Assembly (NCBI RefSeq): GCF_001646785.1
Contig: NZ_LRRH01000051.1
Location: forward strand, 1-64,000
From: Rhodococcus phenolicus
GTDB taxonomy: Bacteria; Actinomycetota; Actinomycetes; Mycobacteriales; Mycobacteriaceae
Length of the DNA: 64,000 bases
Direction: 5' to 3'
Numbering within the stretch: position 1 is the stretch's first letter; the number at the start of each line of letters is the position of its first letter. The position numbers and the translations under genes are program-made. Positions 46,335-63,302 of the stretch are shown here, one piece after another. The notes beneath the pieces were generated by a model. It saw only the letters and a list, made by a program, of their open reading frames with translations, searched no databases and was not told the DNA's origin.

Positions 46335-47289
46335 GCGTGCTTCCCTTCTGTGCGGCTGCGCCGGCATCGACGCCGGTGGCTGTCGCAAAGCTTCTGATGA
46401 TGTGGTCGACGTGACCCGATACGGTCGGCAGGATCCACGGATCGTCCGTGTCGCGGATCGAGTCGATCTGTTCGCCGACCTCCGCGATCGTCCAGGACGG
46501 CCGATACACGCCGGGTGTCTCGGCGATGAACGCGCGCGCGATCCGGCCCGCGATCGTCACCAGCATTTCTCCGGTGATGGAACAGGATTCGTGTGCAAGC
46601 CAGCCGACGGCAGGGGCTGCCAGTTCCGGATCCATCGGCGGATACTTCGACGTGTCCAGTCCTTCGGCCAGCCGGGTCAGCGCCGCCGGCACGATGACGT
46701 TGGAGGTGACGCCGTGCTCGGCGCCTTCGATCGCGGCAACGTTGGACAACCCGATGATGCCGCCCTTGGCCGCCGCGTAGTTGGCGACCCGGTGGTTGCC
46801 GTAGAGGCCGCCGATCGACGATGTGAGCACGATCCGCCCGTAACCGGCCTCGCACATCAGCGGAAACGCCGGGCGCACCACGTTGAACGCACCGCGCAGA
46901 TGGACGTCGAGCACGGCGTCGAAGTCCTCGTACGTCATCTCCGCCAGCGGCGAGTACCGGTTGTTGCCCGCGTTGTGGATCAGGACGTCGATGCGGCCGA
47001 ACCGGTCGACGGCCGCCTCGACGATCGCCCTGCCGCCCTCGGCCGTCGCGACCGACTCCGTGCTGGCCACCGCTTCGCCGCCGGCCTCCACGATCTCGCG
47101 GACGACCTCGTCGGCGGGACTGATGTCGGCGGGATCTCTGCCTGCGCTCTCGCCGCTGATCGTGGCACCGGTGTCGTTGACGACCACCTTCGCGCCCAGG
47201 GACGCGAGCAGCAGCGCGTAGGCGCGCCCCAGCCCGCGTCCCGCGCCGGTGATCACCGCGACGCGTCCGTCGAATCGCAGATCAGACAC
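46324..47289 (-). CDS. Short-chain dehydrogenase of the MFE-2 type (arm gene 5)
   Basis: This 321-residue SDR is longer than classical ones. It has TGAGRGLGRAYALLLASLGA, the MFE-like VVNDTGATISGE, NAGNNRYSPLAEM and the catalytic YAAAKGG. Homologous domains in multifunctional enzyme 2 oxidise 3-hydroxyacyl-CoAs, so a beta-oxidation-type or steroid/alicyclic alcohol dehydrogenase role is plausible. An extra C-terminal ~60 residues have no motif I recognise. The 3' end overlaps the ThDP gene start by 11 bp. Confidence 0.87.
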   Translation of the reverse strand: MSDLRFDGRVAVITGAGRGLGRAYALLLASLGAKVVVNDTGATISGESAGRDPADISPADEVVREIVEAGGEAVASTESVATAEGGRAIVEAAVDRFGRIDVLIHNAGNNRYSPLAEMTYEDFDAVLDVHLRGAFNVVRPAFPLMCEAGYGRIVLTSSIGGLYGNHRVANYAAAKGGIIGLSNVAAIEGAEHGVTSNVIVPAALTRLAEGLDTSKYPPMDPELAAPAVGWLAHESCSITGEMLVTIAGRIARAFIAETPGVYRPSWTIAEVGEQIDSIRDTDDPWILPTVSGHVDHIIRSFATATGVDAGAAAQKGSTHVG

Positions 47290-47328: not shown

Positions 47329-49155
47329 TCACTGCTCGAGTACCAGGCCTTCCAGTTCGCCTGTGCTGCGCCAGTTCTCGAGCAGTTCGGTGAGCTCGTA
47401 GAAGCCGCCCCAGAACGGATCGCCGAGGAACGACCGCCCGTTCGGCTCACCCTCGCTGTTGTAGTAGCCGGGGGTGCACTCGGTCGTGAATTTGCTGTTG
47501 TCGAATGCGTATTGGCGGATGGTCTGGACCCAGCCCTCCTCGGCTTCCGCGGTCGGCTCGACGTGGGAGATACCGCGGCTCTGCGCCTCTGTGATGATGT
47601 ACGCGATGTGGTCGGCCTGCTGCTCGAACATGAGCGTGGTGGCTGCGGTGACGCCGCCCTGGACGAATCCGGTCGCGAAGTGGTTCGGGAAGCCGTGCGC
47701 CATGATTCCGTGCAGGGTGCGGAATCCCTTGCCCCAGTGGTCGTAGAGCGATGTTCCCTCGCGTCCGGTGAAGGGCGCGATGTCGAACTGGCGCTCGAGG
47801 GCAGTGGTGATCTCGAAGCCGCTGGCGAAGACGATGCAGTCGAATTCGTGCTCGACGCCGTTCGCGATGATGCCCTTCTCGGTGATCCGCTCGACACCCT
47901 TGGTGTCGGAGACGTCGATCAGGGTCACGTTCGGCCGGTTGAACGTCGGCAGGTACTCGTCGTTGAAGACCGGCCGCTTGCACATATTGCGGTAGTACGG
48001 CTTCAGCGTCTCCGCGGTCTGCGGGTCCTCGACGATCGACTCGACCCGCTGACGCAGCCGCTCCATGGCCTTGTAGTCCTCGATCTCCTTGAGCTCGAGG
48101 AACTTTGCCGGATCGGCGAGGGCGGCCCAGCCGTTGGTCTCGTTGAGCTTCGCGGCCAGATTGCGCGCGACCTCGGTCCAGCCGTCGCAGATCAGGTCGG
48201 GCTCGCCCGGGTTGTAGAACGCGAACGCCGCGTTGTGGAAGTTGCGCTGTCGCTCCGCCCGCCAGCCCGGCTGCAGGCTCTTCACCCATTCCGGATCGGT
48301 CGGGTAGTTGGCGCGTTCGAAGATGTACGACGGGGTCCGCTGGAAGACCGTCAGCTGCTTCGCGCCCCGGGCCAGGTGCGGGATCGCCTGGACCGCGCTC
48401 GAACCCGTGCCGATGACGGCGATCCTCTTGTCGCCGATCCTGTCGAGTCCACCGTGCAGGTCGCCACCGGTGTAGTCGTAGTCCCAGCGTGCGGTGTGGA
48501 AGGTGTGACCCTTGAAATCCTTGATGCCGGGGATGCCGGGGAGCTTCGGGCGGTTGTACGGGCCCTGGCACATCACGACGAAGCGGGCGAGGATCTCGTC
48601 GCCGCGATTGGTGCCGATCCGCCAGCGCCTGATCCCCTCGTCCCACTCCAGCGACCGGATCAGCGTGTGGAAGATCGCGTGTTCGTAGAACCCGAAGTGC
48701 TTTCCGATGCGCTGGGCGTGCTCGAAGCACTCGTCGCCCTTGGAGAACTTCTCCTTCGGCATGTAGCCGGTTTCCTCGAGCAGCGGGAGGTAACAGTACG
48801 CGTCGGAGTCGATCTGGATTCCGGGGTACCGGTTCCAGTACCAGACACCTCCGAAATCGCCACCGAGCTCGATGATCCTGAAGTCCTTCACACCGGCCTG
48901 CTGGAGCCGGTGGGCGGTGATGAGACCGCTGAATCCACCGCCGAGGATCACCACGTCGATCTCGCCGACGATCGGCTCGCGTGGCTCCACCGGCAGGTGC
49001 GGGTCTCCCGTGTAGAACTCCTCGAACTCGTCGTCGGCCTCGAGATATTGTTGCTGGCCGTCGGAGCGAAGGCGCTTGTCACGCTCGAGGAGATACTTCC
49101 GGTGCAGGGCTTCCTGATCGACCTCGGGTGTCTGCGTAGCGGCGCAGGGTTCCAT
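47329..49155 (-). CDS. Baeyer-Villiger flavin monooxygenase
   Basis: This 608-residue type I BVMO converts a ketone to an ester or lactone with NADPH and O2. The FAD site is GGGFSG (72-77), the NADPH site GTGSSA (249-254), and the fingerprint FxGxxxHxxxW is intact (Phe214, Gly216, His220, Trp224). The ~65-residue N-terminal extension (HRKYLLERDKRLRSDGQQQY) is typical of the BVMO group acting on larger cyclic or branched ketones. GAGGACATTC precedes the ATG. The lactone could be opened by the upstream propeller protein. Confidence 0.92.
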   Translation of the reverse strand: MEPCAATQTPEVDQEALHRKYLLERDKRLRSDGQQQYLEADDEFEEFYTGDPHLPVEPREPIVGEIDVVILGGGFSGLITAHRLQQAGVKDFRIIELGGDFGGVWYWNRYPGIQIDSDAYCYLPLLEETGYMPKEKFSKGDECFEHAQRIGKHFGFYEHAIFHTLIRSLEWDEGIRRWRIGTNRGDEILARFVVMCQGPYNRPKLPGIPGIKDFKGHTFHTARWDYDYTGGDLHGGLDRIGDKRIAVIGTGSSAVQAIPHLARGAKQLTVFQRTPSYIFERANYPTDPEWVKSLQPGWRAERQRNFHNAAFAFYNPGEPDLICDGWTEVARNLAAKLNETNGWAALADPAKFLELKEIEDYKAMERLRQRVESIVEDPQTAETLKPYYRNMCKRPVFNDEYLPTFNRPNVTLIDVSDTKGVERITEKGIIANGVEHEFDCIVFASGFEITTALERQFDIAPFTGREGTSLYDHWGKGFRTLHGIMAHGFPNHFATGFVQGGVTAATTLMFEQQADHIAYIITEAQSRGISHVEPTAEAEEGWVQTIRQYAFDNSKFTTECTPGYYNSEGEPNGRSFLGDPFWGGFYELTELLENWRSTGELEGLVLEQ

Positions 49156-49187
49156 GTGAATGTCCTCGGTTGGTGGGGATTCGAAAG

Positions 49188-50567
49188 TCAGGCGAGGTCG
49201 CGTGGTGCGCCGGTGCCCATGTAGGTGGCGAGATTGTGGTGCAGGTTGACGACGCTGCGTTCGCGGTACGGATTCGGTTTGGGTCCGGAGAAGCCGCGGG
49301 TCTTCATGCCCTGCTGGACCGCGGCCATGTTCGAGAAGTCCTGCGGCAGCACCGTGCGCCAGCCGGGATCGTCGGCAGGGGTGTACTCCCACTCGGTCTT
49401 CGGTTCCTCACCGGCCGGGAACAGTTCGTACACGGCGGCTTCGAAGATGCACTTGTCCGGGTCGTAGCCGTACGGCCGGGCGCTGTAGCAGAGCATGTTG
49501 TTGACCGCGTGCCCGATCTGGAAGTTGGGGAAGATCTGCCACGCTGTTCCGCTCTTCGCGACGATCTGCGGGTCGACGGTCGGCCAGATCACTCCCCGTG
49601 CCTCGTCGTCACGCCGCGCCGAATCGAGCCAGTGCCGCAGCACCTGGTCGGGGGGAGTGCCCTCGGGCAGCTCCTCGAGGAGTCGCTGCGCGGCGTCGAC
49701 GAGGGTGCGGGTCGTGTTGGTGTTCGCGTTCTCCCACGTGAAGTTCTGCAGCTCGATCGTGGCCTTGCGCGCGTCGGGGCCGTTGCCGACGCGCAGCTTC
49801 GCCTGCTGCTCGTCCATGCCCTTGGGGGCGTCGTAGCCGATGTTGCTGTGTTTGCCCTGCGCCCGTGACCATCCGAGGAAGTTCCCGAAGTTCATGAACT
49901 CGGGGTGGGTGTAGGGCACGTGGTAGGTCTCCATGAAGGCTTCGAGCGCGACCTTCCAGTTGCAGTCGAACACAAGCCATTTGCGCCACCGGTAGCGCAT
50001 GTTCTGAAGCTGGAACGGGTCGAGGAGAGAGGCGGCGGGTTCGAGGTAGTCCCGCAGCGGTTCGCAGTCCGGATCCATGTTGATCCAGATCCAGCCGCCC
50101 CACGTGTCGACCTTCACGTCGACCAGCCGGGAGCGCTCGTCGGTGAGCGTGCCGTTCCAGTCGTCGCGTTCGGCGGCGAACGTGTTGTTCCCGTCGAGGT
50201 CGTAACGCCAGCCGTGGAATCCGCACACGAACTGCTTGGCGCAGCCGCGCGCCTCGCGGGCACCGTCGGGTGTGTCGACGAGCTTGCGCCCGCGGTGCGA
50301 GCACACGTTGTGGTAGGCGCGGATCGTGTCCGGTCCGGTGCGCACGACGATGATCGAGTCGTCGAGGATGTCGTAGGTGAGGAAGTCACCCACCTTGACG
50401 AGTTCCTCGACGCGGCCCACCTGCTGCCACACCTTCGCCCACAGTTTGTCGCCCTCGGCGCGGGCGTAGTCCTCGGACAGGTACGCCTCGACACCGATCG
50501 TGAGAGGCGTCGAGAGTGGTTCGGCTGCTGAGGCGGTTTCCTGGATGTTGTCGACTGTGTCGGTCAT
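49188..50567 (-). CDS. Rieske non-heme iron oxygenase, alpha subunit
   Basis: This 459-residue ring-hydroxylating oxygenase has the Rieske centre Cys89-x-His91 (CSHRG) and Cys115-x2-His118 (CGFHGW). The mononuclear iron ligands His216 and His221 lie in METYHVPYTHPE. The length and domain order are those of an alpha subunit. No beta subunit, ferredoxin or reductase gene is nearby, so electrons must come from elsewhere. It lies 33 bp upstream of the BVMO gene, with an SDR before it. Confidence 0.92.
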   Translation of the reverse strand: MTDTVDNIQETASAAEPLSTPLTIGVEAYLSEDYARAEGDKLWAKVWQQVGRVEELVKVGDFLTYDILDDSIIVVRTGPDTIRAYHNVCSHRGRKLVDTPDGAREARGCAKQFVCGFHGWRYDLDGNNTFAAERDDWNGTLTDERSRLVDVKVDTWGGWIWINMDPDCEPLRDYLEPAASLLDPFQLQNMRYRWRKWLVFDCNWKVALEAFMETYHVPYTHPEFMNFGNFLGWSRAQGKHSNIGYDAPKGMDEQQAKLRVGNGPDARKATIELQNFTWENANTNTTRTLVDAAQRLLEELPEGTPPDQVLRHWLDSARRDDEARGVIWPTVDPQIVAKSGTAWQIFPNFQIGHAVNNMLCYSARPYGYDPDKCIFEAAVYELFPAGEEPKTEWEYTPADDPGWRTVLPQDFSNMAAVQQGMKTRGFSGPKPNPYRERSVVNLHHNLATYMGTGAPRDLA

Positions 50568-50594: not shown

Positions 50595-51449
50595 TCAGCG
50601 GGTGATGGCGGCGCGGAACGATTCGTCCTTGAGGAAGAGCGACGTGTGGTCGGCTCCCATGTGCGTCCATTTGAGATTCAGGCCGCCGTCGACGAGGAGT
50701 GTCTGCCCGGTGATGTAGCTCGACAGCTCCGAGAGGAGGAACAGGATCGCCCCGGCCTGTTCCTCGGGCCGGCCGCGGCGGCCCATGGCGATCGCGCGAC
50801 GGTCGCGTTCGGGGTCCTCGTCGACGTAGGTGCCCGACGCCGGTGTCGCGGTCACGCCGGGAGCGACGGCGTTGACGCGGATACCGTCGACGGCCAGCTC
50901 GACGGCCATCGTGCGGGTCGCGGCCACCAGAGCGGCCTTCGCGGTGCCGTAGCCGATGTGGAACGGCGCGGTGTTCATGCCGCTGATCGACGAGATCGAG
51001 ACTATCGAGCCGGGGTTGCCCTGTGACTTGATCTCGGCGGCCACGGCCTGGCTCATGAAGAACATCGTCTCGAGGTTCTGGGTGAACAGCGCCCGCCAGT
51101 CCTCGCGGGTGACCCGGGTGGCCGGCATCCACGTCGCCGGTGCCGCACCCCCGGCGACATTGACGAGTCCGTACAGGTCGCCGTCCGTCCGCCGTGCCGT
51201 CTCGATCACGGCGGCGATGCCCTCGTCGGTGGATGCGTCGGCCGCCAGCGGAACCACCCGAAGGCCCTCGGCGACAAGAGGTTCGATGTGCTTGTTCAGA
51301 TTGTCCTCGGAGCGGCTGACCGCGATCACGGTGGCGCCTGCCTCTGCAACGGTCCGGGTGACCGATGTTCCGATGCCACCGCCCGCGGCACCGGAGACGA
51401 CGACGATGCGGCCGTCGAGACCGAGAAGTTCGCTGCTCACCGCGCTCAC
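50595..51449 (-). CDS. Short-chain dehydrogenase/reductase (arm gene 2)
   Basis: This 284-residue SDR has an unusual cofactor loop, SGAAGGGIG, then VNVAGGAAP (NNAG variant), VSISSISGMN and the catalytic YGTAK. Residues after the usual SDR end (DGGLNLKWTHMGADHTSLFL) form an extra tail. The GTG at 51449 overlaps the upstream stop as GTGA; a second GTG three codons later is possible. It may dehydrogenate an alcohol to the ketone used by the BVMO. Confidence 0.86.
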   Translation of the reverse strand: MSAVSSELLGLDGRIVVVSGAAGGGIGTSVTRTVAEAGATVIAVSRSEDNLNKHIEPLVAEGLRVVPLAADASTDEGIAAVIETARRTDGDLYGLVNVAGGAAPATWMPATRVTREDWRALFTQNLETMFFMSQAVAAEIKSQGNPGSIVSISSISGMNTAPFHIGYGTAKAALVAATRTMAVELAVDGIRVNAVAPGVTATPASGTYVDEDPERDRRAIAMGRRGRPEEQAGAILFLLSELSSYITGQTLLVDGGLNLKWTHMGADHTSLFLKDESFRAAITR

Positions 51450-53035
51450 CGGACCTTGCGGATCGCCAGGACGCTGCCCTCGGCGTCCGCGGAGACGTAG
51501 AGGGTGCCGTCCGGCCCTGCGGCGATACCCGCGAACGGGCCCTGGGGGCCGGAGAACGGCGGCAGGCCGAGCAGCGGTTTCGGGGTTACGCCCTCGGGTG
51601 CACCGACCGGTAGGTTGCGCGCGATGATCTGCTGGGCCTTGGTGTCGAGGTCGACCCCGATGAGGGTTTTCGCGTCGACGTCGACGATGAACAGCGTGCC
51701 GTCGTGGACGACGATGCCCTCCGGTCGCTCGAGCCCGTCGATCAGTGTGTCCACGCCGGAGCCGGTGATCGAGAGGATGCGTCCGGCGCCGGCTTCGGAG
51801 ACCAGGGCCGTGCCGTTCGAGGCGAACGTGACGCCGATCGGCTCGTTCAGGCCGTCGGCGACGACCTGGGCAGCGCCGGACGTGACGGCGTAGACCTTGC
51901 CGGCACCCAGGTCGGCGGTGACGACGGTTCCGCTGTGGGACACCGCGACTCCGTAGAGTGCGTCGAGTCCGTCGACGAGGACCTCGCTCTCGGCGGCCGC
52001 CGGGTTGTACCGGGAGACGATGCCGTCGCCGGTGACGATGAACTCGCCGTCGCCCACAGCGGTGACCCCGCGGATGTAGCCGGGCCAGCCGGGGCTGAAC
52101 AGCATTCCGAGAGTGCGGGTTCCGCCGCCGGGTTCGAGCGCGAGCAGGAACGTGCCGTCCGCGATGTAGAGGGTGCCGTCCGGCCCGACGGTCAGATCCA
52201 GAGGCCAGGTCAACCCGTCGGGCAGAGCTTCGCGGGTCTCGCCGCCGGCGAGGATCTCGGTGACCTTGCCGGTGAAGCTCGACACGAACAGGCGGTCGCC
52301 GAGGAAGGTGAGGTTGTCGAGGCCGGGGTTCAGCTGGGCCAGGACCGTGCGGTCGCCGTTGCGCGGGTCGATCCGCAGGACCTGTCCGGAGGCGACCTGG
52401 GTGGAGACGATGAAGCCTTCGGAGTCGAACTTCACGGCATCGGGGACGCCGAGGTCGCCGGCGACCCGTTCGGGTTCGCCGCCGTCGGGGTCGATGCGCC
52501 AGATGTCGTTCGTGCCGAGCAGGGGATAGTAGAGCTTGCCGTCCGGTCCGACCTCCATGCCGTTGGGCATCGGCAGTTCGTCGAGCAGCACCTTGGGGGC
52601 GCCGCCGGTGGGGTTCAGTTCCATGAGGCGGCCCCCGACGCGGCATTCGTTGACGAAGAGCCGGTCCCGGTGGACGGTGATGCCGTTCGCGCCGGGCAGG
52701 TCGTCGCGCAGCAGGCGGGTGCTGCCGTCGGCGCCGCGGATGCTGACCCGTCCGTCGTAGTACTCGGTGATGTACATGTCGCCGTGGCTGTCGAATGCGA
52801 CGTCGTCGGGGGCGACGATGTCGCTGCCCTTGGCGCTGATCGTCTCGAGTGCGCCGCTGTCCGGGTCGAACGCGCTGATCTGGCTGCCCGCGACCTGCGC
52901 GACGTAGATGCGCCCGTCCGGGCCGGTGCGGAGACCGTTCGCGCCGAACAGTCGGCTCGGCGGTGTGAGTCGTTCCATTCCCCATCCGTCGATGAGGCTT
53001 GTCGATGTTCCGGTGTAGCGCGCCCCTCGTGTCAA
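51446..53035 (-). CDS. NHL/SMP-30-type beta-propeller protein
   Basis: This 529-residue protein is built of repeated blades (GPDGRIYVAQ, GPDGKLYYPL, GPDGTLYIAD, GPDGTLYVSAD). The length suggests two six-bladed propellers or one propeller with extensions. SMP-30/gluconolactonase relatives are Ca2+-dependent lactonases, so lactone hydrolysis after the BVMO is a reasonable guess. No signal peptide is seen. A TTG start (53035) is chosen because GGGAGGGG lies upstream. It is the first gene of the left arm, with promoter and operators before it. Confidence 0.75.
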   Translation of the reverse strand: MTRGARYTGTSTSLIDGWGMERLTPPSRLFGANGLRTGPDGRIYVAQVAGSQISAFDPDSGALETISAKGSDIVAPDDVAFDSHGDMYITEYYDGRVSIRGADGSTRLLRDDLPGANGITVHRDRLFVNECRVGGRLMELNPTGGAPKVLLDELPMPNGMEVGPDGKLYYPLLGTNDIWRIDPDGGEPERVAGDLGVPDAVKFDSEGFIVSTQVASGQVLRIDPRNGDRTVLAQLNPGLDNLTFLGDRLFVSSFTGKVTEILAGGETREALPDGLTWPLDLTVGPDGTLYIADGTFLLALEPGGGTRTLGMLFSPGWPGYIRGVTAVGDGEFIVTGDGIVSRYNPAAAESEVLVDGLDALYGVAVSHSGTVVTADLGAGKVYAVTSGAAQVVADGLNEPIGVTFASNGTALVSEAGAGRILSITGSGVDTLIDGLERPEGIVVHDGTLFIVDVDAKTLIGVDLDTKAQQIIARNLPVGAPEGVTPKPLLGLPPFSGPQGPFAGIAAGPDGTLYVSADAEGSVLAIRKVR

Positions 53036-53072: not shown

Positions 53073-53170
53073 GAAGTGTGGAACTCGGTTGTGCTTCATG
53101 TGTGAGTGTTGTCGCGACAGGGCGCTGCGTATCCACCGCGAGTGACGCAGGCCACTTTCTTCGATGAGGG

Positions 53171-53200
53171 AGTGTAAACATGAAACGGTGAGCTTTACAA
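53171..53200 (-). promoter_or_regulatory. Promoter of the left catabolic arm
   Basis: On the minus strand TTGTAA (53200-53195) and TACACT (53176-53171) are 18 bp apart. The transcript would start near 53164 and run into the propeller gene after a leader of ~130 nt. Confidence 0.55.
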
Positions 53201-53226
53201 GTATTACTATCCTTATAAGGATAGAC
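53198..53226. promoter_or_regulatory. Candidate GntR operator, copy 1
   Basis: CAAGTATT followed by the perfect 16-bp palindrome TATCCTTATAAGGATA and GAC matches copy 2 (54235-54263) at 26 of 29 positions. It abuts and overlaps the -35 of the left-arm promoter. Confidence 0.7.
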
Positions 53227-53359
53227 CGGGCACAAGGATGCGCAGCTATGGAGCCGGCGCGGCGCACGCTGCGATTGCGTTGGGGGAGTGAGGGATCGGT
53301 AAGGAAGGCTCACGAAAATCCGGATGCGGAATCCGCAACCGGAGGGTGTCGGCCCGGAG

Positions 53360-54154
53360 CTAGATCCGGGGGCGCTGGCCGGCTTGGCGCGCCATCGCGG
53401 ACGACGCGTTCACCACGCCGTCGTCGAAGCGGTCGAGGAGCAGCGCCTGTGTCGCGGCCAGGTGTGCGCGGGCGATGCGTTCGGCTTCGCTGTCGCGGCC
53501 GGCGGCGATCTCGTCGACGATGCGGCGATGGATGCGCACCGCCTCCTGCGCCTCTTTCTCGGACGGGTACTCGCCGCGGCGGGTGAGCACTTCTGCCCAC
53601 GCGACCTCCTGTGCCGACCACAGCGCAACCAGGCTGCTCACGACGTACCGCACGGTGACGTTCGGTGTGAAGGAGACGACGAGATCGTGGAATTCACGCG
53701 CGACCCGGGTGAAGGCGACGCCGTCGTCGACCACTTCGGCGCACGCGTTCACATTGGCTTCGAGGGTCGGAACGATCACCTCGGCGCGGTCCGGGCACCG
53801 CGCCAGTTCGGCTGCGCACATCGGTTCGAGCTTCTGCAGGCCTGCGGCGAGATCGCCGAGGGTGACGCGGGCGCCCTGCAGGGCCAGGCCCAGGTGGTAT
53901 GCGGCGGAGAACTCGTCCGGCCGGTGCACCTCGGCTCCGCCGACATTGCCGCGCCGCACGGTCACCAGGCCCTCGGTCTCGAGGATGCGCAGAGCCTCCC
54001 GGATCGAGGGATAACTGACGCCGAAATCCTTGACGAGCTGGTCCTGAGTGGGGAGTCGATAGTCGTCGTTCGAGAGGATGTGGTCGCGAAGCTCGGCTGC
54101 GACCGTTTCCGCGATGCGCCGCTGGGGAACTCGGCCGCGCCGCGGGGTCGTCAC
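53360..54154 (-). CDS. GntR-family (FadR/FCD) regulator of the catabolic island
   Basis: This 264-residue regulator has an N-terminal winged HTH (LPTQDQLVKDFGVSYPSIRE, wing VTVRRGNVGGAEV). The FCD-type helical effector domain includes FTRVAREFHDLVV and a late HRRIVDEIAAG, positions that often bind metal or an acid ligand. It sits between two oppositely directed catabolic arms, each with the same 29-bp element at its promoter, so it is the likely repressor of both and of itself. The GTG start has AAAGGCG upstream. Confidence 0.88.
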   Translation of the reverse strand: MTTPRRGRVPQRRIAETVAAELRDHILSNDDYRLPTQDQLVKDFGVSYPSIREALRILETEGLVTVRRGNVGGAEVHRPDEFSAAYHLGLALQGARVTLGDLAAGLQKLEPMCAAELARCPDRAEVIVPTLEANVNACAEVVDDGVAFTRVAREFHDLVVSFTPNVTVRYVVSSLVALWSAQEVAWAEVLTRRGEYPSEKEAQEAVRIHRRIVDEIAAGRDSEAERIARAHLAATQALLLDRFDDGVVNASSAMARQAGQRPRI

Positions 54155-54215
54155 GAAGTGCGCCTTTCGTCCATGAGCGCCAGTCTAGACAGAGCTCTCA
54201 CCATTCCTCCAATTA

Positions 54216-54244
54216 TTGACAGCCTTGATAGGAGCAAGTATTGC
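54216..54244 (+). promoter_or_regulatory. Promoter of the acyl-CoA dehydrogenase operon
   Basis: A perfect -35 TTGACA (54216-54221) and a -10 TATTGC (54239-54244) are 17 bp apart. The operator copy 2 starts within the spacer and covers the -10 and the expected start site, an ideal position for repression. Confidence 0.65.
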
Positions 54245-54263
54245 AATCCTTATTAGGATAGAC
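54235..54263. promoter_or_regulatory. Candidate GntR operator, copy 2
   Basis: CAAGTATTGCAATCC then TTATTAGGATAGAC repeats copy 1 with three substitutions. It overlaps the -10 of the right-arm promoter and lies 81 bp upstream of the gntR start. A related CCTTGATAGG occurs just upstream at about 54223. Confidence 0.7.
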
Positions 54264-54276: not shown

Positions 54277-55449
54277 ATGGACTTCACGATGGGTGGGTCG
54301 GCTCCGGAGCTCAGGACCGAGCTTCGCAGGCTGGTGCAGGAACACGTGCCCGAGCACTTCCTCGGAGCATTCACCGACGATCCGGCCGATCTCGAAGCGG
54401 CGCAGTCCTTCTGCCGCCTGCTCGCCGAGCGCGGGCTGCTGTGCGCGGCCTGGCCGGAAGAGTTCGGCGGGCGCGGCGCCTCGATCTGGGAACAGACCGT
54501 CGTCCGCGAGGAGATGTGGGCGCACCACGAACCACGGGGCGCCCAGTACATGGGCGTGAACTGGGTCGGGCCCACCATCATGCGTCACGGGACCCCCCGT
54601 CAGCAGGATGTGCACCTGCCGCCCATCGCGCGCGGCGAGGTGATCTGGTGCCAGGGTTTCAGCGAACCCGAGGCGGGTTCGGACCTCGCGTCGTTGCGGA
54701 CCACCGCGCGCCGCGACGCCGACGGCTGGCTGATCTCCGGCCAGAAGATCTGGACGTCCTACGCCACCATGGCGCAGTGGTGCTTCCTGCTGGCCCGTAC
54801 CTCGACCGGCGCGCGGAAACAGCAGGGCCTCACGGTCTTTCTCGTTCCCATGTCCGCCCCGGGAATCGAGGTGCGGCCCATCCGGGCGATGCTCGGACCG
54901 CACCACCTCAACGAGGTCTTCTTCGACGACGTGCGCGTCACCGAGGCGGACGTGCTCGGCGAGGTCGACAACGGCTGGTCCGTCGTGCAGGAAGTCCTGT
55001 CCTACGAGCGCGTGGGCATCGCCCGGTACGCCCGCTGCGAGCGGTTGCTGCAGGCCGCACCTTCGGTTCTCGGTGACCGCTGGGACGACGTGCCCGACGA
55101 ACTCGTGGCCCGCTGGGCGCGAATGCTCACCCATTGCCGCCGAGCCCGCCTGCTCGCCTACCGCGTGGTGTCGCTGCAGGGCGCGGGCACGGTCCAGCCC
55201 GGCGACGCCGCGGCGTACCGGATCGCAGTCACCACCCTCGACCAGGGAAGCGCCGAAGTGCTCACCGAGATCGCCGTGTACGCCACGCCCCCCGACGGCA
55301 ACGCGGATGAATTCGACAATGCGACGGCCCTGTGGTTCCGCCGGGCGGTGGAGGACCACTGGCGGTACTCCCAGGCGGCCACGGTCGCGTCCGGCAGCAT
55401 CGAGATGCAACGCATTCTTCTCGCACGATCCCTCCTGGCGGCATCATGA
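54277..55449 (+). CDS. Acyl-CoA dehydrogenase, catalytic-type subunit (pair 1)
   Basis: This 390-residue FadE-type flavoprotein has the signatures WCQGFSEPEAGSDLASLRT and GQKIWTSYA and the C-terminal ASGSIEMQRILLARSLL. The full FAD and acyl-CoA fold is present. It is paired with the shorter partner gene through an ATGA overlap, as in heteromeric acyl-CoA dehydrogenases of mycobacterial steroid degradation. It probably desaturates a side-chain or ring-derived CoA thioester. Confidence 0.92.
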   Translation: MDFTMGGSAPELRTELRRLVQEHVPEHFLGAFTDDPADLEAAQSFCRLLAERGLLCAAWPEEFGGRGASIWEQTVVREEMWAHHEPRGAQYMGVNWVGPTIMRHGTPRQQDVHLPPIARGEVIWCQGFSEPEAGSDLASLRTTARRDADGWLISGQKIWTSYATMAQWCFLLARTSTGARKQQGLTVFLVPMSAPGIEVRPIRAMLGPHHLNEVFFDDVRVTEADVLGEVDNGWSVVQEVLSYERVGIARYARCERLLQAAPSVLGDRWDDVPDELVARWARMLTHCRRARLLAYRVVSLQGAGTVQPGDAAAYRIAVTTLDQGSAEVLTEIAVYATPPDGNADEFDNATALWFRRAVEDHWRYSQAATVASGSIEMQRILLARSLLAAS

Positions 55450-56399
55450 ACATCGAATTGAGCACGGAAGCAACCGACTACGGCCGCGAAGCGTTGCGGG
55501 CACTCGAGGCGGCGGGTGGTGACGACCTCGTCAGGCGTGTCGAGCACGATCCGTCGCTGCGGCAGGACATCGTCGCACCGATCCTCGCCGGCCTCGGTGC
55601 GTGGGATCTCGATCCGCGCCGGGACTCCGACGAACTCGAGGCGGCGGCCGCGCTGTGCCGCAGCGTCGGCTACTGGACGGTGCCGTACCCGGTCGCCGAG
55701 CGCCTCGCCCGCCCCTCCGATCTCGACGTCGACGGCCTGGTGGTGGTTGCCGATTCCGACCCCAAGGCGCCCATCGCGAACCTCGATCTGCGGTGGGTGG
55801 CCGTCTCACTGGACGGCCGGCGTAGTCACGCAGTCGCGCGGACGCCCAGCACGCCGCCGCGCATGTCCGCGTTCGCCGCGCAACTCGTCCTGGAACCGAT
55901 CGACGACAACGGCGCCGGCGACCTCGCTCTCGCGCTGGTCCTCCCGTGCTGGACCCTGCTGGGAATGCTCGACCGCGCAATGGATCTCACGCGGTCCCAC
56001 GTCCTGCTCCGCGAGCAGTTCGGTGCGCCGCTCGCCCGTCTGCAGAGCGTCCAGTTCCAGCTCACCGAAGCCGAAGTCGAACGCAGCGGACTCGACGTGC
56101 TCGCCAAGTACACGCTGTGGAGCATCCAGGCCGGCAACCCCGAGGCACTCGACGATGCGCTCGCTCTGAGGCTCGCGGCCGTGGAGGCGGCGCAGATCGT
56201 GTTCCGCATCGCCCACCAGCTTCACGGAGCCAGCGGGTTCTGCGACGAGACGACGGTGTCCTGGATCTCCCGCTACAGCATCCCGCTGAGACGCATCCCG
56301 TGGGGGCCGTCCGGCACGCTCGACGCGCTGACCCGCACAATCGGCCGACGCGGCCTGACCGGCCTGTTCACCCCCACCATCGAGAGGGCGCTGCTGTGA
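55446..56399 (+). CDS. Acyl-CoA dehydrogenase-like partner subunit (pair 1)
   Basis: This 317-residue protein is shorter than a full enzyme. The middle beta domain is reduced, but the C-terminal helices keep DRAMDLTRSHVLLREQFGAPLARLQSVQF and IAHQLHGASGFCDET. This fits the small, often non-catalytic partner in alpha2beta2 FadE complexes. The start ATG overlaps the upstream stop by 4 nt, as does its own stop with the hydratase. Confidence 0.88.
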   Translation: MNIELSTEATDYGREALRALEAAGGDDLVRRVEHDPSLRQDIVAPILAGLGAWDLDPRRDSDELEAAAALCRSVGYWTVPYPVAERLARPSDLDVDGLVVVADSDPKAPIANLDLRWVAVSLDGRRSHAVARTPSTPPRMSAFAAQLVLEPIDDNGAGDLALALVLPCWTLLGMLDRAMDLTRSHVLLREQFGAPLARLQSVQFQLTEAEVERSGLDVLAKYTLWSIQAGNPEALDDALALRLAAVEAAQIVFRIAHQLHGASGFCDETTVSWISRYSIPLRRIPWGPSGTLDALTRTIGRRGLTGLFTPTIERALL

Positions 56400-57193
56400 C
56401 CTACGACCTTCCCGATGTGCTCACCGTCGAATCCGACGGGCCCGTCCGGATCGTGACCGTCAACCGCCCCGACGAACTCAACGCCGTGAACGCGGATCTG
56501 CACCGGGCGCTGGCACTCGTGTGGCGGCAGCTCTCGGCCGACCGCGACGCCGCCGTCGTCGTGCTCACCGGTGCCGGCCGCGCCTTCAGCGCCGGCGGCG
56601 ACCTCGACTGGATCACCTCGTTCCTCGACGACCCGGTCGCGCGTGACGAGAGCATCCGCGAGGGCGCCGAGATCATCGAGGAGCTGCTCCGGTTCCCGCT
56701 GCCGGTGATCGCCGCGGTGAACGGGCCCGCGGTCGGGCTCGGCGCCAGCATCGCCGTGCTGTGCGACATCGTGCTCATGTCCGAGCGTGCGTATCTCGCC
56801 GATCCGCACGTCGCAGTCGGCCTGGTCGCCGGCGACGGGGGAGCAGCCTTCTGGCCGCTCCTCACCCCGATCCTGCGTTCACGCGAATACCTGTTCACCG
56901 GCGACCGCATCCCGGCCTCGACCGCCGTCGAGCTCGGTCTCGCCAGCCGCATCACCGCACCCGACGATCTGCTGCCCGAGGCCCGGCTCCTCGCGGCGCG
57001 GCTCGCCGCCCAGCCGGCGCAGGCACTGCGGGGTACCAAACGCGTCGTCAACATGTACCTGTCACAGGCGCTGGCCGGACCGATGCAGGCCGGCTTCGCC
57101 GCCGAGGTCGGCACGATGCAGACGCCCGAGCATCGGGACCGCCTTCTCGCGCTGCGCGCGAACACCGACCGGCGGAAGGAGCCCGCGAGATGA
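56396..57193 (+). CDS. Enoyl-CoA hydratase/isomerase family protein
   Basis: This 265-residue crotonase-fold protein has the oxyanion-hole segments GRAFSAGGDLDWI and VNGPAVGLGASIAVLCD, and RITAPDDLLPEA. The first catalytic Glu of classical hydratases is not obvious (YLADPHVAVGLVAGDG), so isomerase, hydratase or ring-opening hydrolase activity is open. It lies in the middle of the acyl-CoA dehydrogenase operon with 4-nt overlaps on both sides. Confidence 0.9.
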   Translation: MTYDLPDVLTVESDGPVRIVTVNRPDELNAVNADLHRALALVWRQLSADRDAAVVVLTGAGRAFSAGGDLDWITSFLDDPVARDESIREGAEIIEELLRFPLPVIAAVNGPAVGLGASIAVLCDIVLMSERAYLADPHVAVGLVAGDGGAAFWPLLTPILRSREYLFTGDRIPASTAVELGLASRITAPDDLLPEARLLAARLAAQPAQALRGTKRVVNMYLSQALAGPMQAGFAAEVGTMQTPEHRDRLLALRANTDRRKEPAR

Positions 57194-58386
57194 GTCCGGC
57201 GCCACCCGCACTCGACGAGTTCCGCGCCGAGATACGCGCTTGGTGCCGCGACCACGTCCCCGCGGGGTGGCGTGCGGCGCAGACCGGTGCCACCGACGAC
57301 GAATTCGTCGCCTTCCAGAAGCAGTGGTTCCAGGAACTGCGCAGTGCCGGATACGCCGTGCCGCACTGGCCGAAGCAGTGGGGTGGCGGCATGTCCGTCC
57401 CCGAGCAGGTCGTCCTTTACCAGGAACTGGCGGCCCACGACGCCCCACGGCTCGTCCTGCCGTTCGTCTCCATCCACCACGCGGCCTCCACGCTGCTCGC
57501 CGCCGGAACCGACGAACAACGCCGACGCCACCTGCCCGCGATCCTCGACGGCGAGATCTGGTGCCAGGGCTTCTCCGAACCCGGCGCCGGATCCGACATG
57601 GCGGCGCTCGCCACGACGGCCCGCAGGAACGGTGACCACTACATCGTCGACGGTCAGAAGCTGTGGGCGAGCGGCGCGGTGCACGCGGACCGGTGTCTGC
57701 TGCTCGCCCGCACCGATCCCGGCGCACCGAAGCGTCGTGGCATCTCGTACTTCCTGATGGACATGAGCAGCCCGGGCATCGAGGTCCGGCCGATCCGGCA
57801 GGCCACAGGCGAATCGCATTTCTGCGAGATCTTCCTCGAAGGCGTGGTGGTTCCCGAAGCCGACCGCGTCGGAGCGGAGAACGACGGGTGGAAGATCGCG
57901 CAGGAAACCCTCGGTGCGGAACGCGGTATGACCATGCTCGAACTCGCGGAACGACTCGGTACCGGCGGATTCGGCCGGCTCGTCGCGCTGTGCGCGCGGC
58001 CCGGACCCGACGGCACGGTTCCGCTCGACGATCCGGTGGTCGCGGACCGGCTCGCGGCGCTGGAAACGGAGATCGCGGGCCTGCGTGCCCTGTGTGCCGA
58101 TTTCGTCGCCGACGACCGGCCCGGCCCCGCGGACGCGTCGATCGTCAAGCTGTACTACAGCGAGTTGTTGCAACGCACAACCGATTTCGGTGCCGAGGTC
58201 GCCGGACTCGCGGCCCACACCGAATTGCGCAAGCCGCTGTCGAGCGGCTGGGAATCGGGAATGTGGGTGCTCGATTTCATCGGCTCCTGGGAATGGACGA
58301 TCCCCGGCGGCACCAGCGAGATCCAGCGCACCATCATCGGCGAACGCGGACTCGGCCTGCCCCACGAACCCCGGAGCGCGACGTGA
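57190..58386 (+). CDS. Acyl-CoA dehydrogenase, catalytic-type subunit (pair 2)
   Basis: This 398-residue FadE protein has VPHWPKQWGGGMSVPEQVVL, WCQGFSEPGAGSDMAAL, GQKLWASGAVHADR and the C-terminal TIPGGTSEIQRTIIGERGLG. It is a complete acyl-CoA dehydrogenase and forms a second pair with the next gene. The ATG overlaps the hydratase stop by 4 nt. Two pairs suggest two desaturation steps or two chain lengths in the pathway. Confidence 0.92.
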   Translation: MSPAPPALDEFRAEIRAWCRDHVPAGWRAAQTGATDDEFVAFQKQWFQELRSAGYAVPHWPKQWGGGMSVPEQVVLYQELAAHDAPRLVLPFVSIHHAASTLLAAGTDEQRRRHLPAILDGEIWCQGFSEPGAGSDMAALATTARRNGDHYIVDGQKLWASGAVHADRCLLLARTDPGAPKRRGISYFLMDMSSPGIEVRPIRQATGESHFCEIFLEGVVVPEADRVGAENDGWKIAQETLGAERGMTMLELAERLGTGGFGRLVALCARPGPDGTVPLDDPVVADRLAALETEIAGLRALCADFVADDRPGPADASIVKLYYSELLQRTTDFGAEVAGLAAHTELRKPLSSGWESGMWVLDFIGSWEWTIPGGTSEIQRTIIGERGLGLPHEPRSAT

Positions 58387-59486
58387 CCGGCACTCTCGAT
58401 CTGACCGAGTTCCACGACGAACTGCGCGCCGTCGCGCGAAGTATGCTCGCAGCCGCGGGTGCCGGCGCCGCACCGTCCTGGGATCTCGTCGCCGGGTCCG
58501 GATGGATCGGACTCGAAGCCCCCGAGCAATTCGACGGTGCCGGGGGAGGATTCGCGGAGGTTTCGATCGTCCTCGACGAATACGGACGGGCAGCGGCAGC
58601 GGGACCGCTTCCATCTGTTGCCGTTCTGGCCGTGCCGGTACTCGGCCTGGTCGAGCCAGGTCCGGCCCGGGACGGTTTGCTGAGTGAGTCCGTCGCCGGC
58701 GCGACCGTTCCGGTCCTGGTGCTGGGCGGCGGGGGGCTCGCGGCGCCACCGTTCCGCCTCGACTCCACCACGGGCGGGCATGTGCTGCGGGGAGAGGCCG
58801 GCTTCGTGCTCGACGCGCCCGTTGCCGACCGGCTGCTGGTGCCCGCGGCAGGACCGGACGGAACCGTCGTCCTCGTCGACGTCGACCCGGGTTCCGTGGG
58901 CATCGACGTGACGAATCAGCCCGTGCTCGATGCGACGAGATCCTTCGGGACGGTCGTCGCGAACGGGGCCGTGATCGCGGACGATGCAGTCCACTCGTTC
59001 CGGGGCGACCCCGCGCGTACGCTGCAGCACCTGTACGACCGCGCCGCGACCGCGGTCGCATGCGACAGTCTCGGGCTGGCCGAAGCGATGCTCGACACCA
59101 CCGTCGCCTACGTCGGCGTGCGCGAGCAGTTCGGGCGGAGGATCGGCTCTTTCCAGGCCGTCAAACATGCGTGTGCCGACATGCTCGTGGCGATCACGGT
59201 GTCCCGCCGGCTCGTCGCCGGTGCCGTGCGCGCACTCGTCGACGACGCGCCGGATGCCGCGGTCGCGGTATCGATGGCGAAGTCGCACGTGTGTGCCGCC
59301 GCCGTGGACGTCGCGGGCAAGGCCGTGCAACTCCACGGCGGCATGGGCTACACGTGGGAGAGCGGAATCCACGTGTATCTCAAACGCGCCACTCTGAACC
59401 GGTCGTTGTTCGGGTCCCCGGGGCAACACCGCAGACGACTCGCGGAGCGGTATGTGATTGCGGGGCAGGGACGGCCGGGTTCCTGA
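58383..59486 (+). CDS. Acyl-CoA dehydrogenase partner subunit (pair 2)
   Basis: This 367-residue protein has an acyl-CoA dehydrogenase fold with weak FAD motifs in the middle domain and a C-terminal domain with YVGVREQFGRRIGSFQAVKH and KAVQLHGGMGYTWES. It is probably the beta partner of the previous gene product. It starts in a GTGA overlap and ends the five-gene right arm. Confidence 0.9.
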   Translation: MTGTLDLTEFHDELRAVARSMLAAAGAGAAPSWDLVAGSGWIGLEAPEQFDGAGGGFAEVSIVLDEYGRAAAAGPLPSVAVLAVPVLGLVEPGPARDGLLSESVAGATVPVLVLGGGGLAAPPFRLDSTTGGHVLRGEAGFVLDAPVADRLLVPAAGPDGTVVLVDVDPGSVGIDVTNQPVLDATRSFGTVVANGAVIADDAVHSFRGDPARTLQHLYDRAATAVACDSLGLAEAMLDTTVAYVGVREQFGRRIGSFQAVKHACADMLVAITVSRRLVAGAVRALVDDAPDAAVAVSMAKSHVCAAAVDVAGKAVQLHGGMGYTWESGIHVYLKRATLNRSLFGSPGQHRRRLAERYVIAGQGRPGS

Positions 59487-59513: not shown

Positions 59514-60203
59514 TCATGCCGGTGCCGGCGCGGAGCTGTGGGTCAGCACCCCGCTGTGCATCTCGTACAGCTCGTCGACGAGGTCGAGCCGGGCGAGGTC
59601 GTGGGTGACCATCACGATCGCGAGGTCCCGCTCGTGGGCGAGCCCGGCCAGCAACCCGACGATCTCCCGGCTGCGGGCCTCGTCGAGCGCCGATGTGGGC
59701 TCGTCGACCAGCAGCACCGACGGGTCGTTCATCAGGCTGCGGGCGATCGCGACGCGCTGCCTCTGTCCGCCGGACAACTGGTGGGGTCGCTTGTCGAGAT
59801 GACCGTCCAATCCGAGCGAGGTCAGCAGGTCGCGGGCCCGATCGCGATGGTCGCGAACCCGGCCGCCACGCAGATGCGCCGTCATCAGCAGCTGGTCCAC
59901 GGCAGTGAGCGACGCGAGCAGATTGGACTGCTGGAACACGAAACCGAGTTGCTCGCGGCGGAGCGCGGTGCGCTGGGACCGACTCAGTCCGGTGGTGTCG
60001 GTCCCGTTGACGGTGACGGTGCCGAAGTCGGGGGCGGTCAGCAGGCCCGCCACTGCGAGCAGACTCGACTTGCCCGATCCGGACGGGCCCGTGACCGCGG
60101 CCAGTTCACCGCGGCGGACGGCGAGGCTCACGTGGTCGAGCACGCGGAGCACGCCGTCGCCGTCGGGGTAGGTCAGGACTGTGTCGTGGAGAGTGATGCT
60201 CAC
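59514..60203 (-). CDS. ABC transporter ATP-binding protein, LolD/MacB type
   Basis: This 229-residue ATPase has Walker A GPSGSGKSSLL, Q-loop FVFQQSNLL, signature LSGGQRQRVAIARSL, Walker B SVLLVDEPTSALD and switch His in VTHDLARLD. This class works with FtsX-type permeases such as the one encoded just upstream, in lipoprotein release or antimicrobial-peptide efflux. The GTG start is 50 bp after the permease stop; the gap contains a heptamer repeat. Confidence 0.93.
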   Translation of the reverse strand: MSITLHDTVLTYPDGDGVLRVLDHVSLAVRRGELAAVTGPSGSGKSSLLAVAGLLTAPDFGTVTVNGTDTTGLSRSQRTALRREQLGFVFQQSNLLASLTAVDQLLMTAHLRGGRVRDHRDRARDLLTSLGLDGHLDKRPHQLSGGQRQRVAIARSLMNDPSVLLVDEPTSALDEARSREIVGLLAGLAHERDLAIVMVTHDLARLDLVDELYEMHSGVLTHSSAPAPA

Positions 60204-60217
60204 GGTCGTCTCATCTC

Positions 60218-60245
60218 TGTCGGGTGTCGGGTGTCGGGTGTCGGG
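60218..60245. repeat. Heptamer tandem repeat between ABC genes
   Basis: TGTCGGG is repeated four times between the permease stop and the ATPase start codon. The region should be prone to slippage, which would change spacing or leader structure rather than a protein. Confidence 0.85.
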
Positions 60246-60253
60246 TGCCCGTG

Positions 60254-61321
60254 TCAGCGGGCCGCACCGAGCGCCTCGAGAGGGTCCACGGTGGCGACGC
60301 GGATCACTGCGGCGGTTGCTCCGAGCATGCCCAGCACGACGAACGCGACGAACGGCACCGACGTGCCCGCCGCCGTGAGCGTGAACGGGACCACCTGGGC
60401 AGCAAGATTTCCCAGTCCGACCGCGGTCAGCGTGCCGAGACCCGCCCCGGTCACGAGCACCAGCAGTCCCTGACCGAGCGCGTCGCACAGCAGGTAACCG
60501 GGGGATGCGCCGATGGCCCCCAGCACGGCGAGGTCCTGGGTGCGCTGGACGGTCCACACGGTGAAGAATGCGCCTGCCACCAACGCGCCGACCACGAGCA
60601 GCATGCCCTGCATCAGGAGCAGCGAACCGCGCTCGGAACTGTAGCCTCCGATCGCGTTCACGGCTTCCGGAACATCGGCGATCGCCGTACCGGTGGCCGC
60701 GCCCACGGCGGAGGCGTCGAATGCGGCGGTCGTGCGCAGCGCGACGATGGTGCCCTCGCTGCCGCCCGACGTCGGTAACGCCAGCCAGTCGGCTCGGTCG
60801 AACCAGACCACCGGTTGGTGGCTGTAGTACGAGTCGTCGAGCAGCGCCCGCACCGTGAACGACCGCCCACCGGCCTCGACGCGCTGCCCGAGGTCCCAGC
60901 CGTTGTCGTCGGCGAGTGTCCGCTCGACCGCGACGTCGCCCGGCCGGAGCGGTACCGGCGCCGCGAACGATGAGCCGTCGACCCCGAATGCGGCCGCTCC
61001 GACGTCACCGCCTGCGCCCGTCACCCGTGTCGTCGCCACCCCGACGATCGCGGCGTCGTCGACGCCCGGTTGTGCGGCGAGGCCGCTGCGCTGCGCCTCG
61101 CCGATCCGGGAGTCGGCGAACGAGAGTTCCCGGTCCGGCGCGGGCGCGTCGAAGGCGAAGTGGTCGGCGCCGATGCCCTGCACCGCGGCGATCGACCGGT
61201 TTCCCAGTCCCGCGGTCAGCCCCGACAGCATCACCACCATCAGCGAGAGGAGGAACAGGACCGCGGTCGTCAATGCGAAGCGGCCCTTGGCGAACGCGAG
61301 GTCACGAATACCGAGGAACAT
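60254..61321 (-). CDS. FtsX-like ABC transporter permease
   Basis: This 355-residue permease has an N-terminal membrane segment (FALTTAVLFLLSLMVVMLSGL), a large extracytoplasmic MacB-like domain (residues ~45-240), then three C-terminal membrane segments in the FtsX domain (LLLMQGMLLVVGALVAGAFF onwards). It pairs with the adjacent ATPase. The ATG at 61321 gives the family N-terminus MFLGIRDLAFAKGRF. A two-component system starts divergently 128 bp away and probably controls it. Confidence 0.9.
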   Translation of the reverse strand: MFLGIRDLAFAKGRFALTTAVLFLLSLMVVMLSGLTAGLGNRSIAAVQGIGADHFAFDAPAPDRELSFADSRIGEAQRSGLAAQPGVDDAAIVGVATTRVTGAGGDVGAAAFGVDGSSFAAPVPLRPGDVAVERTLADDNGWDLGQRVEAGGRSFTVRALLDDSYYSHQPVVWFDRADWLALPTSGGSEGTIVALRTTAAFDASAVGAATGTAIADVPEAVNAIGGYSSERGSLLLMQGMLLVVGALVAGAFFTVWTVQRTQDLAVLGAIGASPGYLLCDALGQGLLVLVTGAGLGTLTAVGLGNLAAQVVPFTLTAAGTSVPFVAFVVLGMLGATAAVIRVATVDPLEALGAAR

Positions 61322-61436
61322 GGGTTCCAGCGTTGCCTGCGGCGGGGGCCGGTCGCATCGCACGAGGGTTGGGTTCTCCGGTCAATCGAAAGTTGGATTC
61401 CTGCGATCGGGGCAGGTCGGCGCCCTGCGGCGGTGT

Positions 61437-61442
61437 TAGCGT
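61437..61442 (+). promoter_or_regulatory. -10 element for leaderless histidine kinase gene
   Basis: TAGCGT ends 7 nt before the ATG at 61450; a leaderless transcript is likely. Confidence 0.45.
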
Positions 61443-61449
61443 GGACGAA

Positions 61450-62682: not shown

Positions 62683-63302
62683 CACTGCGGATCCTGCTGG
62701 TCGACGACCATCCGGTGGTGCGGGCCGGGCTGCGGGCCCTGTTGTCGTCGCACGACGGACTCGAGGTGGTCGGGGAAGCGGCGACGGGAGAGCAGGCGCT
62801 CGAACTGGTGGCGGCAGTGCGTCCCGACGTCGTGCTGATGGACCTGCGGCTCGGGGAGGGCATGGACGGCGCGACGGCCACCGCGCAGATGGTGGCGCGT
62901 GCCGACCCGCCCCGCGTCGTCGTGCTCACCACCTACGACACCGACGGCGATATCCTGCGGGCCGTCGAGGCGGGCGCGTCCGGCTACCTCCTCAAGGACA
63001 GTGAAACGCAGATTCTCGTCGACGCGGTGTGGGCCGCGGCCCGCGGAGAAACCGTGCTCGATCCCGATGTGGCGCAGCGCCTGTACCAGCGGATCCGTAC
63101 ACCCGGGGTCGAGCTCAGCGCCCGCGAGGCGGAGATCGTCGCTCTCGTCGCGCGCGGGTTGTCCAACCGAGCCGTCGCGAAGGAACTGTTCGTCACGGAG
63201 GCGACCGTGAAATCACACCTGGTGCATGTCTTCTCGAAGCTCGGCGTGGACAGCCGGACGGCCGCCGTCGCAGTCGCGCGGGATCGCGGCCTGATCGACT
63301 GA
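62679..63302 (+). CDS. Response regulator, NarL/FixJ family
   Basis: This 207-residue regulator has a receiver domain with acidic Asp9-Asp10, phosphoacceptor Asp55 (VVLMDLRLGEG) and Lys in YLLKDSE. A LuxR-type HTH follows at ~140-200 (LSAREAEIVALVARGLSNRA, TVKSHLVHVFSKLGV). It is co-translated with the kinase. Its target is probably the divergent ABC exporter. Confidence 0.94.
   Translation: MTLRILLVDDHPVVRAGLRALLSSHDGLEVVGEAATGEQALELVAAVRPDVVLMDLRLGEGMDGATATAQMVARADPPRVVVLTTYDTDGDILRAVEAGASGYLLKDSETQILVDAVWAAARGETVLDPDVAQRLYQRIRTPGVELSAREAEIVALVARGLSNRAVAKELFVTEATVKSHLVHVFSKLGVDSRTAAVAVARDRGLID

Follow-up and report, generated by a model that had tools for sequence, protein, structure and literature searches.

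Two nearly identical 29-bp elements flank a regulator gene between the divergent arms of a catabolic gene cluster in Rhodococcus phenolicus, and the locus raises the question of which protein reads these elements and which genes it controls. The best explanation, to which we assign a probability of roughly 0.82 from sequence comparison, is that the GntR/FCD protein whose gene they flank binds both copies. In the window, meaning the whole 64-kb stretch of DNA that was analysed, the 29-bp pattern has exactly two matches (53198-53226 and 54235-54263), each with no mismatch in a search that allowed up to three, and it has none in 100 dinucleotide shuffles of the window. The copies differ at 3 of 29 bases, bearing out the 26/29 identity given by the first-pass annotation, and the GntR gene that it placed between them, the ten-gene left arm and the five-gene right arm are likewise as it described. 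The conserved unit is an 18-bp palindrome together with a CAAGTATT[GA] box. No Rfam element reaches its gathering score in the window. The operator copies, the regulator gene and the genes of both arms are as follows.

53198-53226, plus strand: operator copy 1, 29 bp, upstream of the left arm
53207-53224, unstranded: core of copy 1, a perfect 18-bp palindrome CTATCCTTATAAGGATAG, by the core definition from 142 sites
53360-54154, minus strand: gntR, GTG start, GntR winged HTH and FCD regulator of 264 aa, from Pfam and AlphaFold fold matches
54235-54263, plus strand: operator copy 2, 29 bp, in the gntR/ACAD1 intergenic region
54244-54261, unstranded: core of copy 2, an imperfect 18-bp palindrome CAATCCTTATTAGGATAG
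51446-52978, minus strand: left gene 1, SMP-30/NHL-like beta-propeller, start approximate
50595-51401, minus strand: left gene 2, SDR, start approximate
49188-50567, minus strand: left gene 3, Rieske ring-hydroxylating oxygenase alpha
47329-49314, minus strand: left gene 4, flavin monooxygenase of Baeyer-Villiger type, start approximate
46324-47289, minus strand: left gene 5, SDR
44628-46331, minus strand: left gene 6, thiamine-pyrophosphate enzyme, start approximate
43160-44593, minus strand: left gene 7, aldehyde dehydrogenase, start approximate
42284-43123, minus strand: left gene 8, TauD/TfdA dioxygenase
41544-42311, minus strand: left gene 9, SDR, start approximate
40907-41635, minus strand: left gene 10, CMD family
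54277-55449, plus strand: right gene 1, acyl-CoA dehydrogenase (ACAD1)
55446-56399, plus strand: right gene 2, acyl-CoA dehydrogenase-like (ACAD2)
56396-57193, plus strand: right gene 3, enoyl-CoA hydratase
57184-58386, plus strand: right gene 4, acyl-CoA dehydrogenase (ACAD3)
58380-59486, plus strand: right gene 5, acyl-CoA dehydrogenase (ACAD4)

The gntR product contains both domains by which the FadR (FCD) subfamily of the GntR family is recognized, a GntR winged HTH (Pfam PF00392, 48.2 bits, cut-off 27) and a C-terminal FCD domain (PF07729, 47.5 bits, cut-off 24.3). The C-terminal acyl-CoA domain model that marks FadR proper has no match among the Pfam hits at E 0.001, and the NCBIfam NanR model scores 64.8 bits, below its cut-off of 260. 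The AlphaFold model (mean pLDDT 81.4, pTM 0.65, residues 69-73 below 50) matches the structures of NanR, Atu1419, CGL2915 and FadR, with TM values of about 0.3 to 0.7 among the matches listed. E. coli NanR (6on4) is the top match by sequence and by fold and the closest solved relative among these searches, and it is likewise a FadR-subfamily exception to the consensus; NanR binds direct GGTATA repeats with a 32-residue N-terminal extension (PMC8012715), whereas the operator here is an inverted repeat and the N-terminus is shorter, with profile position 5 aligning to NanR residue 23. Atu1419 (6z74/6za3) resembles the protein in its FCD fold and palindromic DNA and differs in sequence, with about 22% identity in the fold match. 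This VanR-type protein is a palindrome-binding GntR repressor of Agrobacterium fabrum. The residues D101, H156, H209 and H231 are invariant in the GntR/FCD orthologs, and we take them to fit the FCD metal-binding set.

Close orthologs of the regulator (at least 62% identity) are present in 14 of 151 family genomes. For the 13 such loci besides the window, the 14-mer core, sought within 1.5 kb of gntR with at most two mismatches, lies on both sides of the gene in five, on one side in one and on neither in seven, some of the last having degenerate gntR-upstream sites in wider stretches or sites farther off. Standard sites precede the MDR gene in, e.g., L038, L044, L045, L046 and L048. A wider sample consists of the best 80 of 94 relatives from 12 genera, obtained in a scan of genome contigs and scored within 260 bp upstream of gntR with a symmetric 18-bp matrix seeded from 13 sites. 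A dyad at or above threshold is found upstream of gntR at 71 of these 80 loci, compared with 7 of 1600 first-order Markov-randomised regions, although the loci are not independent because many of the Nocardia are close relatives. Six of the 80 share a genome with the seeds, all six having sites, and leaving them out gives 65 of 74. The expectation of the first-pass annotation that the element would be kept beside orthologous clusters is thereby supported, and the palindrome in its own promoter or divergon is a further trait that the regulator shares with the FadR subfamily. Parts of PMC4494728 describe local regulators of this subfamily with the same combination of winged HTH and FCD domain, palindromic operator, autoregulatory position and divergent operon.

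The 71 positive loci span all 12 genera of the sample, with above-threshold sites in Rhodococcus (5/5), Nocardia (41/49), Williamsia (5/5), Actinomadura (6/6), Mycobacterium (4/4), Mycolicibacterium (3/3), Parafrankia (2/2), Frankia, Gordonia, Aldersonia and Actinocorallia (1/1 each) and Amycolatopsis (1/2); the nine loci with no above-threshold site upstream of gntR are eight Nocardia and one Amycolatopsis. Some accepted Nocardia sites, e.g., L075, L081 and L125, are degenerate, and some are off-register. In all, 142 sites were placed, comprising 67 between ACAD1 and gntR (64 loci), 7 more before gntR, 37 before SMP-30, 13 before MDR, 13 between AMP-ligase and CaiB and 5 others, and none of the 142 lies inside homologs of the window's cluster genes. 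Five Mycobacterium/Mycolicibacterium loci carry the perfect 18-bp palindrome CAATCCTTATAAGGATTG, by which the core is defined. Parts of the cluster are present in Rhodococcus, Nocardia, Williamsia, Gordonia, Actinomadura, Mycolicibacterium and Frankia. A group of Nocardia loci (L075, L078, L081, L082, L086 and similar ones) has a changed or half site upstream of gntR, AAAGATTGCAATCTTT-like or CAAATATTGCAATCATTG, and no ACAD1 adjoining gntR; in G022 and G096, which belong to this group, the ACAD1 operon elsewhere retains a standard site.

The position of the palindrome relative to the predicted promoters differs between the operons, and the promoter elements in the window are the following.

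54241-54246, plus strand: predicted -35 of the right arm, TTGCAA, from the TTG found here in ACAD1 sites and a match in the own genome
54265-54270, plus strand: predicted -10 of the right arm, TAGGGT, from the TANNNT register of ACAD1 sites
53195-53200, minus strand: predicted -35 of the left arm, TTGTAA, overlapping the CAAGTATT box, from related leaders
53171-53176, minus strand: predicted -10 of the left arm, TACACT, 18 bp from the -35, from the sequence
54182-54187, minus strand: predicted -10 of gntR, TAGACT

A TANNNT motif stands exactly 3 nt past the palindrome toward ACAD1 in 53 of 67 ACAD1 sites, whereas none of the other offsets tried gives more than 7; TTG occupies the matching -35 in 51 of 67, and both occur together in 41 of 67; the same register of TTG and TANNNT is found in 11 of 13 MDR sites and 22 of 37 SMP-30 sites. 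The right arm accordingly reads TTGCAA-18-TAGGGT with the palindrome in the spacer, followed by six bases and then the ATG (54277). This arrangement is better than the promoter proposed by the first-pass annotation, in which a perfect TTGACA was the -35 and the copy covered the -10: TTGACA is present at 54216-54221, but as a right-arm -35 it recurs in only 1 of 67 ACAD1/gntR sites (64 loci), that of the nearest relative. The right-arm mRNA is probably leaderless, a prediction that likens it to mycobacterial leaderless transcripts, whose start codon immediately follows the promoter in the account given in parts of PMC4633059. For the left arm of the window, the palindrome lies 6 bp upstream of the predicted TTGTAA-18-TACACT, with its centre near -51, and for gntR it also lies just upstream of the -35. 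On the gntR side the box gives TTG in 56 of 74 sites, with TANNNT 17 or 18 bp further on in 42 of these 56. Outside the window, 51 of 74 gntR-side sites have TANNNT at +29/+30 relative to the dyad, a shorter distance than the one seen in the window.

Two short elements lie in the leaders of these promoters. Before gntR, a seven-codon ATG ORF (54151-54174, minus strand) starts 7 nt past the predicted -10, and its TGA overlaps the gntR GTG. An ATG ORF ending on the gntR start in this way occurs at 57 of 72 testable loci, compared with 19.3 expected in randomised upstream regions, and is mostly 7 codons (21 loci) or 11 codons (16 loci) long. This short ORF suggests a leaderless, translationally coupled start; the overlap itself exists largely because residue 2 is Thr. 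In the long SMP-30 leader, AGTGGCCTGCGTCACT (53141-53156, minus strand) resembles a CRP/GlxR site, and GTG-N8-CAC is present in 31 of 37 related SMP-30 leaders (12 of 37 in a stricter form), both being raw counts uncorrected for chance occurrence.

On each strand a -35 element overlaps the CAAGTATTG box, which for this reason need not be part of the operator; it may consist of overlapping -35 elements, a third half-site, or both. That it is a third half-site recruiting a second dimer is possible but rather doubtful. The Aldersonia box CAAGGATTG is a perfect half-site, and parts of Suvorova 2015 (PMC4494728) report weaker extra boxes 7-12 nt from the centres of GntR sites, a feature that FadR-subfamily regulators would then share with the present one. 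Pointing the other way, the TTG of the box stands at the gntR -35, L059, L061 and L063 have a CAATACTTG copy farther from the palindrome and beside a shifted gntR promoter (by eye), and Mycolicibacterium does not retain the box in that form.

The sign of control is best read from the place of the palindrome. Where it fills the promoter spacer, bound protein should block RNA polymerase, and the register points to repression at ACAD1 and MDR. Repression is likely at the left arm of the window as well, but there and at gntR the sign of control is less certain, since a palindrome upstream of the -35 is also a suitable position for an activator. That the protein activates the left arm and its own gene, or regulates them in both directions, and represses only where the palindrome is in the spacer is an unlikely reading of these data, though the distance of the left-arm palindrome from its -35 and the gntR-side register would suit it. 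FadR itself can both repress and activate. The palindrome lies inside the spacer in 22 of 37 SMP-30 sites, which suits repression. The proposal in the first-pass annotation that the GntR protein represses both arms and itself holds in so far as the element is best explained as an operator of this protein, but repression of every target is no more than a proposal.

The identity of the binding protein is addressed by its co-occurrence with the site. A longer promoter-operator pattern, allowing at most two mismatches, was compared with the presence of a close ortholog across the 151 genomes, and it is found in 13 of 14 genomes with an ortholog and 0 of 137 without (Fisher p 7e-18), the exception being G109, in which the ortholog is present and the pattern absent. 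A reversed control pattern has no match in the 151 genomes. Within genera, the counts with and without the ortholog are 4/4 and 0/6 (g1), 4/4 and 0/5 (g11) and 2/3 and 0/6 (g23), a comparison in which common descent plays a much smaller part. As predicted for a trans-acting regulator, the site also precedes operons remote from gntR: ACAD1 operons in G022 and G096, either on a different contig or at a distance of about 96 kb, and in G119 an SMP-30 operon with its closest gntR about 29 kb away. Two of the 24 pattern matches (G022:C5:50914 and G098:C6:114847) have no clear cluster-gene ortholog adjoining. Taken together, the conservation, the co-occurrence and the sites before orthologous operons far from gntR indicate that the GntR/FCD protein is very probably the binder of the palindrome.

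A palindrome by itself names no protein, and further cluster genes also co-occur with the site; because the loci were searched only for the window's own genes, a regulator common to them but lacking in the window would have escaped notice. Even so, it is improbable that another transcription factor encoded elsewhere binds the palindrome and that gntR is merely a target, as gntR adjoins the site at 71 of the best 80 of 94 loci, and Mycolicibacterium and Frankia include loci at which only ACAD genes of the window set lie beside gntR. That the 29-bp similarity is shared promoter sequence (-35 box and spacer) rather than an operator is highly improbable, for despite the overlap of the CAAGTATTG box with -35 elements in both orientations, the spacer forms a palindrome that is itself conserved, Mycolicibacterium keeps this palindrome without the box in CAAGTATTG form, and no plus-strand gene start adjoins copy 1.

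The set of sites attributed to the GntR/FCD protein extends beyond the window. A scan of the organism's own 6.28-Mb genome with the 14-bp core, allowing two mismatches, gives 19 strand-hits, compared with 6 for the reversed pattern used as control, and the matches with at most one mismatch fall in four places on the contig of the window and one elsewhere (C40:28957). Copies 3 and 4 are near-perfect palindromes that lie past the end of the window, at positions 67365 and 71594 of its contig. Copy 3, which retains the CAAGTATTG box, is flanked by the MDR-MaoC-AMP-ligase operon and a solute-binding-protein gene; copy 4 has no box and is flanked by an AMP-ligase/SDR pair on one side and, on the other, by an operon for a CaiB-type CoA-transferase and an enoyl-CoA hydratase. 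The label of CoA-transferase for a further gene between these last two comes only from inspection by eye. With up to three mismatches, the promoter-operator pattern finds only copies 2 and 3 in this genome and its control finds none. The match at C40:28957 (G000, L003), ATGCTTATCAGGAT, is not palindromic, has no box and is away from the cluster; its mismatches number one or two depending on the strand, and it does not fit the explanation given here. The remaining 14-mer matches have two mismatches each and are scattered. The operator set is thus larger than two because of the two additional copies on the same contig, and a compact regulon of both arms and gntR, as the first-pass annotation defined it, is right as to the sites of both arms but too narrow, there being at least four operators in the genome. 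As to its point about unrelated copies genome-wide, the best matches lie on this contig apart from C40:28957, and the two-mismatch matches are dispersed.

The operator itself is unusual for the subfamily. The first-pass annotation had remarked that the core differs from the classical TGGT-ACCA sites, and indeed the 142 sites give AATCCTTATAAGGATT, without the GT..AC core of the TKGT/ACMA boxes, which parts of PMC4494728 present as typical of the FadR subfamily with exceptions such as NanR and BioR. According to Table 1 of that paper, FadR Arg35 and Arg45 (HTH positions 28 and 38) contact G, and HMMER alignments to PdhR and NanR place Asp38 and Tyr48 of the present protein at these two arginines. 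Arginine at positions 28 and 38, common but not obligatory in the FadR subfamily, is absent from the 15 orthologs, in which position 28 is Asp (9/15) or Glu (6/15) and position 38 is Tyr (14/15) or His (1/15), and the half-box here is CCTT/AAGG. Arg-G and Asp-C contacts are inferred in parts of PMC4494728 at site positions 6/14, which by our placement, on an even-spaced site and counting outward from its centre, would correspond to the fourth base; C is found at this base in 117 of 142 sites and G opposite in 120 of 142. Reading of this C by the Asp/Glu at position 28 is suggestive only. An acidic residue at position 28 was also considered as sufficient for the CCTT core and rejected: six paralogs of 47-49% identity (L021-L026) have Glu and no such palindrome in 200 bp upstream nor within 1.5 kb, and therefore at least one further change is needed for CCTT reading.

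From the sites, their conservation, their co-occurrence with gntR and the promoter register, all of which are computed, we infer a mechanism in which a dimer of the GntR/FCD protein would bind the 18-bp palindrome. At the ACAD1 and MDR promoters, and at SMP-30 in many Nocardia, the palindrome would form the 18-bp spacer between TTGNNA and TANNNT, so that at least ACAD1 and MDR would be repressed, and at the gntR promoter and the window SMP-30 promoter it would sit just upstream of the -35. Binding of a pathway intermediate in the FCD pocket, probably an acid or an acyl-CoA, would free the DNA of the regulator and so jointly induce both arms along with the MDR-MaoC-AMP-ligase and AMP-ligase/CaiB operons. 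The substrate would pass through a cyclic ketone. The nearest match of the Baeyer-Villiger-type enzyme is 5mq6, followed by phenylacetone and steroid monooxygenases, and the PtlE model scores 649.6 bits, below its cut-off of 1100; these matches suggest a cyclic ketone without settling its identity. At the edges of the two arms, a 2-isopropylmalate synthase gene (39247-40896, plus strand; NF002991, 702.7 bits, cut-off 455) converges on the end of the left arm, and a pair of ABC ATPase and FtsX-like permease genes with a response regulator (59514-63302) separates the right arm from the operon of the regulon that follows it. An ORF near this pair is histidine kinase-like by eye only, and no 14-mer match precedes these genes.

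Topic and sequence searches of the open-access literature yielded no description of the operator or cluster, and six 14-18-mers of the site have no occurrence there. The reading given by the first-pass annotation is partly supported, its probable operator and likely protein being right, the regulon wider and one promoter misassigned. The regulator is of an ordinary kind, if well supported, and it is the operator that is unusual. A broader proposal, which we advance tentatively and at somewhat less than even odds, is that an acidic residue at HTH position 28 with Tyr at 38 marks an unrecorded DNA-specificity class of FCD regulators reading CCTT/AAGG, and that the operator-promoter is a movable cassette for an undescribed actinobacterial pathway whose cyclic or polycyclic substrate forms a ketone. 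If this is true, the -35 box, the palindrome as spacer and the -10 would be fused into a single such cassette. For the FadR subfamily, the finding provides a clear exception to the operator rule and a residue-to-base prediction open to testing, in which Asp/Glu would read the C four bases out from the centre. It also links a regulator and its probable operator with about 24 genes of an oxidative and CoA-dependent pathway that is uncharacterised, and the ACAD1 promoter would serve as a ready reporter for discovery of the substrate.
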